Source: Chromatiales bacterium (GTDB lineage: Bacteria > Pseudomonadota > Gammaproteobacteria > CAMYNG01). Taken from it: DNA of 36,248 bases. Both the position numbers and the translations under genes were made by a program. The stretch is taken from the NCBI GenBank assembly GCA_027005735.1, contig JALTLF010000214.1:1-36248 (forward strand). The letters are read 5' to 3'. Shown here one piece after another: positions 18,867 to 23,374 of the stretch. The number at the start of each line of letters is the position of its first letter. The first letter of the stretch is position 1. Under the pieces are notes generated by a model, which ran no database searches, had not been told where the DNA came from, and worked only from the letters and a program-made list of their open reading frames with translations.

Positions 18867-19913
18867 ATGCGAGTAGTTCAATATAGCCTCTCCCTCCTGC
18901 TGATGATATGGCTGGTCTTGCCGGCATGGGCCGCGGAACCTGATGGCCGCACACTCTACGAGGAAAATTGTGCCGCCTGTCATGGCCTGCGCGGCTTTGG
19001 CGGCGTGGGCGTGCCCCTCGCGCTGGAGGGCTTCCAGCGCGTGGTGACCGACGAGTACCTGAGGAAAACCATCAGGCTGGGTCGCCCGGGCCGCGTCATG
19101 CCCGCCTTCACGCGCCTGTCCGACGACGAGGTCCATGCCATCATCGCTTACGTGCGCAGCTGGAACAATATCCCCTCGCCGGTCTACAGCGATACCCCTG
19201 TCCGCGGTGATGCCGCCCACGGCAAGCAGCTGTTCGCCAGACACTGCGCCGCCTGCCACGGCCCCGAGGGGATCGGCGGCAAGGGCACCGGCGTGACCTT
19301 TTCCCGTCCCCGCGAGGCCCCGCTGATCGCACCGGCGCTCAACAACGCGGGTTTCCTCGCCGCCGCCTCCGATGCCATTCTGCGCCAGACCCTGCTCAAC
19401 GGGCGGCGCGGCACGCCCATGCCGTCGGCCAGGGAGCTTGGCCTGTCGGATCAGGATATCAACGACGTGGTGGCCTACCTGCGCACCCTCGGCAAGGGCA
19501 CGCCCGAGCTGACCGACTGGGAGACCGAGCCCACCTATCTCGTCGTGGAGACCGACATTCCCATCGAACAGGCGGTGGAGAACGTCAAGCGGGCCGTGCT
19601 GGGGGTCAATTTCCGCCTCATCCGTATTCAGTACCTCAACCAGGGCCTGGTGCCGGCGGGCAAGGAGAACAGGCAACAGGTCATTGTCTATTTTTGCAAT
19701 TTCGATTTTCTCTACGAGGCCCTGGCCATCGATCCGCGCGTTGGCATTTACCTGCCCTGCCGGATCACCCTCGTCCGTGAGGGGGGCGTGACGCGCATCA
19801 TGGCGGTCAACCCCAAGCGTATCAGCCGGATCTTCAACAACCGTGAATTGATCCGCGCCTGCGGCGAAATGAAGGAAATCTACGAACAGATCCTCGACGA
19901 GGCCTCGCTATGA
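18867..19913 (+). CDS. Diheme c-type cytochrome fused to a C-terminal DUF302 domain
   Basis: ORF 18660..19913, start at 18867 gives a signal peptide. Two CAACH heme motifs (18969-18983, 19245-19259) each followed by a candidate Met ligand (GRVMPAF, GTPMPSA); C-terminal VVETDIPIEQAVENVKRAVLGVNFRLIRIQYLNQGLV... is DUF302-like. Confidence 0.85.
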   Translation: MRVVQYSLSLLLMIWLVLPAWAAEPDGRTLYEENCAACHGLRGFGGVGVPLALEGFQRVVTDEYLRKTIRLGRPGRVMPAFTRLSDDEVHAIIAYVRSWNNIPSPVYSDTPVRGDAAHGKQLFARHCAACHGPEGIGGKGTGVTFSRPREAPLIAPALNNAGFLAAASDAILRQTLLNGRRGTPMPSARELGLSDQDINDVVAYLRTLGKGTPELTDWETEPTYLVVETDIPIEQAVENVKRAVLGVNFRLIRIQYLNQGLVPAGKENRQQVIVYFCNFDFLYEALAIDPRVGIYLPCRITLVREGGVTRIMAVNPKRISRIFNNRELIRACGEMKEIYEQILDEASL

Positions 19914-20377
19914 AAGGTATCGGGAAAGGGCGTGGTAGCCTGCTGCTCGTTCTCCTGCTGGGCCTGGCGTGCCTCACGGCGCAGGCCGACGATCTCATCA
20001 TGGTACGTTCGGCACAGGATTTTCCCGAGACCATGCTGGCCCTGCAGGAGGCCATCAAGGCCGAGGGCTACCAGATCGCCCGCGTGCAACGCGTGGACAT
20101 CGGCCTCACGCGGCGCGGCTTCAAGACCGACAAGTACCGCGTGGTCTTTTTCGGCCGCAACGAGGAAATCAGCCGTTTGATCCGGCAGCAACCGGAACTG
20201 GCGCCCTACCTGCCACTGAAGATCTCCATTTTTGCCGAGGGCAGCGAAACCCTGGTGGTGACCATGAACCCGCTGATCCTGGCGGAGTTGTATCCCGACT
20301 CCCCCGCCAGGCCGGTCTTCCGGCGCTGGGCGCAGGACGTACAGCGGATCCTGCGACGCATCCGGGTCGCGCAGTAA
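19910..20377 (+). CDS. Secreted DUF302-domain protein
   Basis: Signal peptide (LLLVLLLGLACLTAQA), then DLIMVRSAQDFPETMLALQEAIKAEGYQIARVQRVDIGL. ATGA overlap with the preceding gene. Confidence 0.8.
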   Translation: MKGIGKGRGSLLLVLLLGLACLTAQADDLIMVRSAQDFPETMLALQEAIKAEGYQIARVQRVDIGLTRRGFKTDKYRVVFFGRNEEISRLIRQQPELAPYLPLKISIFAEGSETLVVTMNPLILAELYPDSPARPVFRRWAQDVQRILRRIRVAQ

Positions 20378-20436: not shown

Positions 20437-20450
20437 TTGATCCAGGTCAA
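20437..20450. promoter_or_regulatory. FNR/ANR-type binding site upstream of hemN
   Basis: TTGATCCAGGTCAA versus consensus TTGAT-N4-ATCAA (one mismatch), 60 bp before the hemN ATG. Confidence 0.75.
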
Positions 20451-20509: not shown

Positions 20510-21904
20510 ATGGATCAGACTGTCGAATTCGATCGCGAGTTGCTCGAGCGCTACAACGCCACCGGACCCCGCTACACCTCCTATCCCACGGCGAACCGTT
20601 TTCACGATGCCTTCGGTGCCGAGGAACTGGCGCGCAGCGCACGCTGGTCCAACGAGGATCTGATCCCCAATCCCCTCTCGCTGTATGTCCATATCCCCTT
20701 CTGCGAGACGGTCTGTTTCTATTGCGGTTGCAACAAGATCCCGACGAAGGACCACAGCAAGTCCGTGCCCTACCTGGAGGCCCTGCACAAGGAGGCGGCC
20801 CTGCTGGAAGATTTCTTCGACATGGACCGGCGCGTGGAGCAGATGCACTGGGGTGGCGGGACCCCCACCTTTCTCGGTACCCGGCAGATGAAGGAGCTGA
20901 TGTTCTTTATTCGCAGCAACTTCAACCTGCGTGACGATGACAGGGGCGAGTATTCCATCGAGATCGATCCCCGCGATGCCGATGAGGCCATGATCGCCAT
21001 GCTGCGCGAAATCGGCTTCAACCGCCTGAGCTTCGGTATCCAGGACTTCAACGAGAAGGTGCAGGAGGCGGTCAATCGTGTTCAACCGCTGGAGCAGACC
21101 ATGAACGCGTATAAGGCGGCGCGCGAGCACGGTTTCCACTCGGTGAATTTCGACCTCATCTATGGCCTGCCCTTCCAGAGCATGGACAGTTTCGGCACCA
21201 CGGTGGAGATGGTCATCGATGCCCGCCCCGATCGCATCGCGGTGTTCAACTACGCCCACCTGCCCCACCTGTTCAAACCCCAGCGCCGCATCAACGAAGC
21301 CGATCTGCCACCGCCCGAGGAGAAGCTGGGTATTCTGCAACAGACCATCGAGCAGCTGACTGCTGCCGGCTATGTCTATATTGGTCTCGATCACTTCGCC
21401 CTGCCGGAGGACGAACTGGCGCAGGCGCAGTTGAACGGCACCCTGTACCGCAACTTCCAGGGCTTTTCCGCCCATTCCGAATGTGATCTCATCGCGCTGG
21501 GGGTCTCCTCTATCGGCAAGGTGGGCGACTGTTACTACCAGAACGAGCGTTCCATCGACGCCTACTATGCCGCCCTCGAGCGCGGCCAGTTGCCGGTGGC
21601 GCGTGGCGTGCAACTCACCGCCGACGACATCATCCGCCGAGACGTGATCAATTCCCTGATCTGCTATTCGCACCTGGACTTCGCCAGGATGGAAGAAAAG
21701 TACGGGCTGGAATTCGAAGACTATTTCGCCGAGGAACTGGAACGCCTGAAAGAACCGCTGGTGGACGGACTGGTTTCCCTGCAGGACAGGGTGATCACCG
21801 TCAATCCGCGCGGCAAGCTGCTGGTGCGCAACGTCGCCATGATCTTCGATCTCTACCTGCGTGATGCCGGCGATACGGTCACCCGCTTCTCACGGGTGAT
21901 CTGA
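20510..21904 (+). CDS. hemN: Oxygen-independent coproporphyrinogen III oxidase
   Basis: YVHIPFCETVCFYCGCNKIPTKDHSKSVPYLEAL radical-SAM CxxxCxxC motif; MHWGGGTPTFL; FNRLSFGIQDFNEKVQEAVNRVQP; start at 20510 (MDQTVEFDRELLERYNATGPRYTSYPTA). Confidence 0.95.
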   Translation: MDQTVEFDRELLERYNATGPRYTSYPTANRFHDAFGAEELARSARWSNEDLIPNPLSLYVHIPFCETVCFYCGCNKIPTKDHSKSVPYLEALHKEAALLEDFFDMDRRVEQMHWGGGTPTFLGTRQMKELMFFIRSNFNLRDDDRGEYSIEIDPRDADEAMIAMLREIGFNRLSFGIQDFNEKVQEAVNRVQPLEQTMNAYKAAREHGFHSVNFDLIYGLPFQSMDSFGTTVEMVIDARPDRIAVFNYAHLPHLFKPQRRINEADLPPPEEKLGILQQTIEQLTAAGYVYIGLDHFALPEDELAQAQLNGTLYRNFQGFSAHSECDLIALGVSSIGKVGDCYYQNERSIDAYYAALERGQLPVARGVQLTADDIIRRDVINSLICYSHLDFARMEEKYGLEFEDYFAEELERLKEPLVDGLVSLQDRVITVNPRGKLLVRNVAMIFDLYLRDAGDTVTRFSRVI

Positions 21905-21919: not shown

Positions 21920-22684
21920 TCAGCTGTCGGAGATCATGTCCTTGATGTGCTGGCAGTTGATGCCGGCATATTCCGCCAGCGCCACCAGCTTGCTCATGTC
22001 GCGGATGGTGACGAGGCGGCGGTGGACTTCGAGGATGCCGTCTTCCTGGAAGCGCGTGAACAGGCGACTCACGGTTTCCACCGCCAGCCCCAGGTAATTG
22101 GCAATATCGTGGCGGGACATGCTCAGGTTGAACTCGTTGGGCGAGAAACCCCGCGTGCGAAAACGGCAGGAGAGATTGAGCAGGAAGGCGGCGAGGCGCA
22201 CGTCCGCCATCTTCTTGCCCAGCATGAGCAGCATCTCGTGCTCGGAACCGATCTCCTTGCTCACCAGGCTCATGAACTGGTGGTTGAGGCCGGGGATCTG
22301 GTGACACAGCTCCTGCATGTTCTGGTAGGGCAATTCACACACCGTGGTGGTCTCCAGCGCCACCGCCGAACAACTGTGCGTATCATGCTCCATGGCGTCG
22401 AGACCGAGGAGTTCGCCGGGCATGTGGAAGCCGACGATCTGCTCTTCCCCGGAAGGCGTCGGCAGGAAAACCTTCACCGAGCCGGAGCGCACGGCATACA
22501 GCGAGCGAAACGGCTGGCCGACCTGAAAGAGAAATTCCCCCTTCTTGATGGGCCGCTTGCGCTGCACGATGTCGTCCAGCCGCACCATTTCCGAATCGTC
22601 CAGACTGCGCGGCAGGCAAAGCTCGGAGAGACTGCAGGCCTGGCAGGTGGTCTTGAGCGACTTGAGGTTGACGATCTGGTTCAT
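21920..22684 (-). CDS. fnr: FNR/Crp-family oxygen-responsive regulator
   Basis: N-terminal Cys cluster TTCQACSLSELCL, cNMP-binding fold, central HSCSAV Cys, HTH MSRHDIANYLGLAVETVSRLFTRFQEDGIL. Confidence 0.93.
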   Translation of the reverse strand: MNQIVNLKSLKTTCQACSLSELCLPRSLDDSEMVRLDDIVQRKRPIKKGEFLFQVGQPFRSLYAVRSGSVKVFLPTPSGEEQIVGFHMPGELLGLDAMEHDTHSCSAVALETTTVCELPYQNMQELCHQIPGLNHQFMSLVSKEIGSEHEMLLMLGKKMADVRLAAFLLNLSCRFRTRGFSPNEFNLSMSRHDIANYLGLAVETVSRLFTRFQEDGILEVHRRLVTIRDMSKLVALAEYAGINCQHIKDMISDS

Positions 22685-22783
22685 GGAATGCTTGTATTTT
22701 TGTGTGCGGACCCGTGACTACTTTGCCCCGCCGGCGGGACGCGGTCAACCCGTGCTTCTGTACACATGACGCTTGACTTGCAT

Positions 22784-22806
22784 GGATTTAATACCCATAT
22801 AAATCC
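22784..22806. promoter_or_regulatory. Inverted repeat in the divergent fnr / host-attachment gene intergenic region
   Basis: GGATTTA-ATACCCATA-TAAATCC, perfect 7 bp arms, close to a TTGACT (22773) and TATAAA. Confidence 0.4.
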
Positions 22807-22849
22807 TGAGGGCAAAATCTGGACTAAGCTGCAGGGTAAGCCGGGCCCC

Positions 22850-22863
22850 TTGATCGGGATCAA
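22850..22863. promoter_or_regulatory. Perfect FNR/ANR box upstream of the host-attachment-family gene
   Basis: TTGATCGGGATCAA matches TTGAT-N4-ATCAA exactly, about 60 bp before the ATG. Confidence 0.82.
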
Positions 22864-22921
22864 CGCCCGAGTTGTCTTGCGAGTCCATCATGTCCACAGG
22901 ATCGGAAAAAGGAGGTATGCC

Positions 22922-23374
22922 ATGGCTACAACCTGGGTTGTCGTTGCGGATGCGGCGCGGTCTCGGATCTTTTCCTCGCTGGGTGGCAAGCGCCCGCTGG
23001 TGGAACTGGAAGTCCTCACCCACCCCGTGGCGCGGATCGCGGAACGTGAACTGGGCAGCGACGAACCGGGGCGAAGTTTCGACAGCCAGGGTCAGGGCCG
23101 CCACGCCATGGGTAACAAGGGCGCCATCAAGCAGCATGAAACCGAGGAATTTGCCCGGCAAATCGCCGCCCGGCTGGACGCCGCGCGCAAGGAGGACGCC
23201 TTCCAGCATCTCATCCTGGTGGCGCCCCCCGCCATGCTGGGCGCCCTGCGGGACCATCTCCCCGCCCCCACCGCGAAGCGTCTGTTCTATGAACTGGACA
23301 AGGATCTGACCCAGGACACGGGTGACGCCATACGCGCGCGCCTGCCGGAGTTTTTTCCCAACAATCTGCGCTGA
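22922..23374 (+). CDS. Host attachment protein family (AtsE-like)
   Basis: MATTWVVVADAARSRIFSSLGGKRPLVELEVLTHP...HHAMGNKGAIKQHETEEFARQIAARLD-type pattern (here GRHAMGNKGAIKQHETEEFARQIAARLD); GGAGG ribosome-binding site upstream. Confidence 0.82.
   Translation: MATTWVVVADAARSRIFSSLGGKRPLVELEVLTHPVARIAERELGSDEPGRSFDSQGQGRHAMGNKGAIKQHETEEFARQIAARLDAARKEDAFQHLILVAPPAMLGALRDHLPAPTAKRLFYELDKDLTQDTGDAIRARLPEFFPNNLR

Follow-up and report, generated by a model that had tools for sequence, protein, structure and literature searches.

Two overlapping genes at the locus

The stretch of DNA analysed here (the window, 36,248 nucleotides from a Chromatiales bacterium) carries two adjoining forward-strand genes, A and B, whose exported products both contain a DUF302 domain. 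The features of the pair, with conservation counted over 68 relatives, are listed below.

18867 to 19913, forward strand: gene A, secreted diheme cytochrome c–DUF302 fusion, 348 aa, ATG start at 18867
18867 to 18932, forward strand: signal peptide of A, residues 1–22, cleavage after AWA (between VLPAWA and AEP) placed by eye
18969 to 18983, forward strand: heme 1 attachment motif CAACH, residues 35–39; C35, C38 and H39 in 68/68
19098 to 19100, forward strand: Met78 (GRVMP), candidate axial ligand of heme 1, 68/68, ligation putative
19245 to 19259, forward strand: heme 2 attachment motif CAACH, residues 127–131; C127 and C130 in 67/68, H131 in 68/68
19419 to 19421, forward strand: Met185 (GTPMP), candidate axial ligand of heme 2, 68/68, ligation putative
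19533 to 19910, forward strand: DUF302 domain of A, residues 223–348, with the PF03625 match at residues 264–316 and a fold that matches 1Q9U
19910 to 19913, forward strand: ATGA overlap of the A stop and the B start, read from the sequence
19910 to 20377, forward strand: gene B, secreted stand-alone DUF302 protein, 155 aa, with a signal peptide and no Cys at A-type positions

Pfam profiles matched A as Cytochrome_CBB3 (4.1e-28) and Cytochrom_C (5.5e-26), each over two stretches, and as DUF302 (PF03625; 9.8e-11, 41.8 bits); B matched DUF302 as well (3.8e-7, 30.3 bits), both DUF302 scores lying above the curated cut-off of 23 bits. In the predicted structure of A (mean pLDDT 81), the C-terminal region matches the solved DUF302 structure 1Q9U with a target-normalised TM of 0.87, and the model of B (pLDDT 91) matches it with a target-normalised TM of 0.83; 1J3M was matched by both. 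The initial annotation had described a secreted diheme cytochrome c with CAACH sites, candidate Met ligands and a C-terminal DUF302 domain, followed in an ATGA overlap by a second exported DUF302 protein. This description is borne out by the Pfam calls, by the signal peptide of B and by conservation of the heme residues in 67 to 68 of the 68 relatives, and its reservation that the C-terminal region might not be DUF302 is removed by the scores of A and B.

The hydrophobic stretch of the Sec-type signal of A aligns across all relatives, one of which, full-length and from the same genus, is 81% identical, and the 4-base overlap recurs in most relatives inspected. Two CxxCH motifs with a downstream Met, the pattern of class I diheme cytochromes, are found in 67 of the 68 A relatives, the exception being L121. 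At this locus (L121:8387-9409, genome G065) both heme 2 cysteines are gone and the His and Met are kept. A resembles CcoP, cytochrome c4 and the bc1-cc diheme cytochromes in its pair of class I heme domains, each with CxxCH and Met, but it falls far below the curated cut-offs of these families (57.3 bits against the cbb3 oxidase subunit CcoP, TIGR00782, cut-off 179.95) and differs from them in its C-terminal DUF302 domain. TsdA and SoxX, periplasmic c-type cytochromes of sulfur oxidation, resemble A only weakly: A scored 34 bits against SoxX (TIGR04485, cut-off 61), and its similarity to TsdA is marginal (E about 0.008), A having conserved Met78 and Met185, candidate ligands, after both CxxCH motifs, where TsdA is characterized by a His/Cys-ligated active heme.

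Pairing and distribution of A and B

Gene B follows A on the same strand in 68 of 68 loci, which comprise those of the A-bearing genomes and further relatives. Of 369 gammaproteobacterial genomes, 61 (about one in six) carry full-length A; the reverse search, which started from B, recovered B in 60 of the 369, and all 60 also have A. Two trivial explanations were rejected on these counts: chance pairing or a misread domain by the Pfam DUF302 calls and the invariant gene order, and a curiosity specific to the window by the distribution of A among the Gammaproteobacteria. The proposal of a periplasmic redox module coupled to a second DUF302 protein, together with the expectation that the pair should co-occur in other genomes, is thus supported by both the loci and the reverse search. 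In a phylum-wide sample of 399 genomes, full-length A occurred only in the window and in one further gammaproteobacterium; the remaining matches inspected were diheme cytochromes of a molybdenum (Mo) operon, described below. Plasmid records yielded distant stand-alone DUF302 matches only, and searches against PADLOC profiles of known anti-phage defence proteins and against PHROGs gave no match.

The genes that flank the pair differ between loci, indicating that A–B is a self-contained two-gene unit. Many A–B loci adjoin cyaA, an esterase gene, lysA or argH, and several have soxY and/or soxZ immediately upstream of the pair. The literature passages on DUF302 that we found contain no description of a cytochrome–DUF302 fusion; the A–B module is real and apparently undescribed. 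The solved members of the DUF302 family (PF03625; 1Q9U, 1J3M, 7TJ1) have the same fold and share a CN...LPC cysteine pair with A, but they are short single-domain chains, whereas A is a diheme fusion paired with a Cys-poor DUF302 protein.

Neighbourhood, FNR-type boxes and the molybdenum operon

In the window, an endonuclease V gene lies upstream of A on the opposite strand, and the following features lie downstream of B.

20437 to 20450, forward strand: FNR-type box TTGATCCAGGTCAA, between B and hemN, the box nearest to the pair in the window
20510 to 21904, forward strand: hemN, oxygen-independent coproporphyrinogen III oxidase, neighbour (TIGR00538, 598 bits)
21920 to 22684, reverse strand: fnr, anaerobic regulator, neighbour (NF008365, 294 bits)

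As hemN lies near A–B in a few families only, the varying neighbours show that hemN and fnr are not constant members of the unit. Of 64 non-redundant loci, 28 have a palindrome of the FNR type (TTGAYN4RTCAA) in the 250 bases that precede A, mostly at a distance of 50 to 90 bases from its start, compared to 0.07 expected from shuffled sequences. All 913 kb of the loci collected contain 44 such sites, and the box is about 100-fold enriched upstream of A. The window and the sister genome of its own genus lack an FNR-type box upstream of A, and the box at 20437 to 20450 probably serves hemN rather than the pair. Thus, the hint at low-oxygen physiology that the initial annotation drew from hemN and fnr gains support from the FNR-type boxes of 28 of the 64 loci, whereas adjacency to these two genes is not general and the window itself has no box before A. 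Other members of the FNR/CRP family, such as DNR or FixK, recognise similar sites, so the signal read at these boxes could be oxygen or nitric oxide. A further observation concerns fnr itself: a perfect FNR box (TTGATCGGGATCAA) at 22850 to 22863 precedes, by about 60 to 70 bases, the ATG at 22922 inside the open reading frame at 22766 to 23374. This arrangement suggests that ATG 22922 is the actual start of that gene and that the gene and fnr have a regulatory region in common.

One alternative assigns A–B to anaerobic respiration, as an electron partner, to or from a NapA-like periplasmic molybdenum enzyme. In two genomes (G006 and G273) the pair sits inside the Mo operon, after the genes for the NapA-like Mo enzyme and a NapG-like protein and before those for a NapH-like protein, further ferredoxin-type proteins and hemN. 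Presence of the operon goes with that of A, confirmed cases numbering 7 among 16 A genomes compared to 1 among 79 others in the same search (p = 8e-6). The operon is present in the genome of the window as well, on a different contig (C188). However, this colocation is confined to one family, 9 of the 16 A genomes lack the Mo-operon cytochrome at the search threshold, and the operon carries a diheme cytochrome of its own, which together make a dedicated partnership with the Mo enzyme quite improbable. Besides C188, the operon occurs without A–B in other Gammaproteobacteria and in other members of the phylum.

The Mo operon is conserved in its own right (L213:2-7583 on G000:C188, L130, L184, L239-L253) and comprises up to eight genes. 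Its Mo enzyme is NapA-like and periplasmic, with an NARMCM motif and a score far below the NapA cut-off. The operon further encodes, besides its diheme cytochrome and NapG/NapH-like proteins, a 527-aa membrane ferredoxin-type protein and a 205-aa protein (HHVLGRPSYSL) with no Pfam or NCBIfam match.

Conserved thiols and association with sulfur oxidation

Three cysteines of the DUF302 domain of A, and one position of B, bear on the function of the pair.

19695 to 19697, forward strand: Cys277 (YFCNF) of A, 66/68
19758 to 19760, forward strand: Cys298 (LPCR) of A, 65/68
19860 to 19862, forward strand: Cys332 of A, 59/68, substituted in one clade with a new Cys at B62
20093 to 20095, forward strand: Val62 of B, Cys at that position in the clade without A Cys332

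Cys277 and Cys298 correspond to the CN...LPC pair of other DUF302 proteins, including 1Q9U and 1J3M. A keeps this pair in 65 to 66 of the 68 loci; B lacks it, typically reading FG/LPLK, and normally has no cysteines at A-type positions. The third cysteine behaves differently. Across the 68 loci, 59 have a cysteine at A332 and none at B62, seven have the reverse, two have neither and none has both, the reverse arrangement being that of one clade in which A lacks Cys332 and B has gained a cysteine in 7 of 7 loci. Such a swap is expected if A332 and B62 approach each other in an A–B dimer, and the sequence pattern suggests that A and B form a heterodimer and share a thiol site, possibly a three-thiol cluster. 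Since the swap amounts to about one evolutionary event on the tree, and the independent-pairs test found only one supported pair and so had no power, it is suggestive only.

The thiols also bear on a simpler reading, a plain diheme electron shuttle in which the two DUF302 domains would provide no more than a platform for docking or dimerization, with cysteines of a structural kind. In its favour, the two heme domains are of the ordinary class I type with putative Met ligands, DUF302 homodimers are predicted in a passage of PMC5037610, and the one lineage without the three thiols (G215 and G315, of one genus, the only two genomes in which all three A cysteines are lost) retains A and B together. 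Retention of Cys277 and Cys298 across deep divergence argues against purely structural roles, as does the appearance of the third cysteine in B where A has lost it, and we regard a plain shuttle as somewhat unlikely.

Comparison of genomes with and without the pair associated A–B with sulfur oxidation, which by itself does not establish a function. Sox or Dsr genes are present in 59 of the 61 A–B genomes, including soxB and dsrA in the genome of the window. Strong soxB matches occur in 56 of 61 A genomes compared to 95 of 308 others (p = 1e-19), strong dsrA matches in 48 of 61 compared to 71 of 308 (p = 3e-16), and soxB by family in 32 of 33 with A compared to 46 of 149 without (p = 4e-13), a test that counts related genomes and in which collapse to families corrects for kinship only in part. 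As only 32 of the 78 soxB-bearing families have the pair, A–B is an accessory of the pathway at most. In the genome of the window the pair lies off the soxB contig (C237), and so does not share the place between soxA and soxB that is characteristic of the DUF302 genes of sox operons.

The two exceptions without Sox or Dsr genes are again G215 and G315, neither of which gave a Sox, Dsr or FCSD match. Among the other A genomes without a strong soxB match, dsrA is present in G059, SoxY, SoxA and an FCSD domain are present in G319, and a partial soxB match was obtained in G339, a genome that is 75% complete. A broader rule, that every genome without soxB and dsrA also lacks the cysteines, was narrowed by the findings for G319 and G339, and loss of the thiols coincides with loss of Sox in one genus only. 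In G319, A lacks Cys298 despite the presence of Sox genes.

DUF302 genes have been noted before near genes of sulfur oxidation. Passages of PMC5037610 place them in sox clusters of Acidithiobacillia, where the authors speculate on periplasmic trithionate oxidation, and passages of PMC11034169 place one or more in Sulfitobacter sox clusters; these cases, compared here by description, are similar to A–B in their link to sulfur oxidation, and the same passages describe neither a cytochrome fusion nor a DUF302 pair. A passage of PMC5061849 mentions a DUF302 gene resembling one of the Synechocystis sqr operon.

The CN...LPC pair is common among DUF302 proteins, including copies in copper operons of the genome of the window, and therefore is not sulfur-specific. 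Copper handling is another possible role of A–B: Cu(I) would sit on the thiols and the hemes would carry out Cu(II) reduction or Cu(I) oxidation, helping at low oxygen either to mature cuproenzymes or to defend against copper. In the genome of the window, an RND efflux operon for copper/heavy metals, its adaptor bearing a CusF domain, has a DUF302 gene directly behind one for a monoheme cytochrome c (C151, L207:2269-7976), and another DUF302 gene lies by genes for a cupredoxin, a multicopper oxidase and a response regulator (C61, L210:118-5018). Passages of two reports point the same way: a Bradyrhizobium DUF302 gene raised in microoxia is listed beside ccoG (PMC6515984), and DUF302 is mentioned in an Acidihalobacter metal-resistance cluster (PMC7760498). 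On the other hand, G215 and G315, which have lost the three thiols, have the copper enzymes cbb3 oxidase and NosZ, whereas G229, which keeps Cys277 and Cys298, has neither, in a comparison of ccoN and nosZ that covered 9 to 10 genomes only. Furthermore, the genes that recur around the 68 pairs, a minority of which were annotated one by one, include no prominent copper gene. We consider a primary role in copper handling unlikely.

We propose instead, tentatively and with a little less than even confidence, that A–B is an accessory electron-transfer unit of sulfur oxidation. A and B would form a periplasmic complex in which the DUF302 domain of A, with its three conserved thiols, and the Cys-poor DUF302 domain of B make up a heterodimeric ligand site, in line with the suggestion of the initial annotation that DUF302 may bind or sense a small ligand. 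That ligand is presumably thiophilic, with reduced sulfur the better candidate and copper less likely. The thiols would bind a reduced sulfur species or a sulfane intermediate, and the two Met-ligated c-type hemes of A would pass its electrons on, acting as a shuttle that links the ligand site with the pool of soluble cytochromes. The unit would thereby serve reduced-sulfur oxidation at low oxygen, and A–B may be an unrecognised electron-entry point of that process. Of this picture, the domain make-up, the constant pairing, the thiol conservation, the sox/dsr association and the FNR-type boxes are observed; formation of the heterodimer, the arrangement of the thiols, a sulfur ligand and the direction in which electrons flow are proposed.

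To our knowledge, DUF302, although widespread and structurally solved, has no assigned function in the literature found. An obligate unit in which the domain is joined to hemes, and which is connected with lithotrophic sulfur oxidation and an FNR-type switch, offers a specific, testable hypothesis for its role. A bolder version, which we think doubtful, is that the unit is a new sulfur-cycle enzyme, a DUF302/DUF302 heterodimer whose shared three-thiol site would catalyse redox reactions of a reduced sulfur compound (e.g. sulfane or polythionate sulfur) and hand the electrons to the attached diheme cytochrome. If true, this would be the first biochemical role for DUF302.

Several A–B genomes contain a second, cytochrome-free version, an overlapping pair of an A-type and a B-type DUF302 gene, suggesting that the DUF302 pair is probably the core of the unit and the cytochrome an attachment. 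Inspection of these cytochrome-free pairs (L218-L225) showed, as a separate observation, that the A-type cysteines are kept in those inspected and that some of the B proteins have a lipobox-like Cys.
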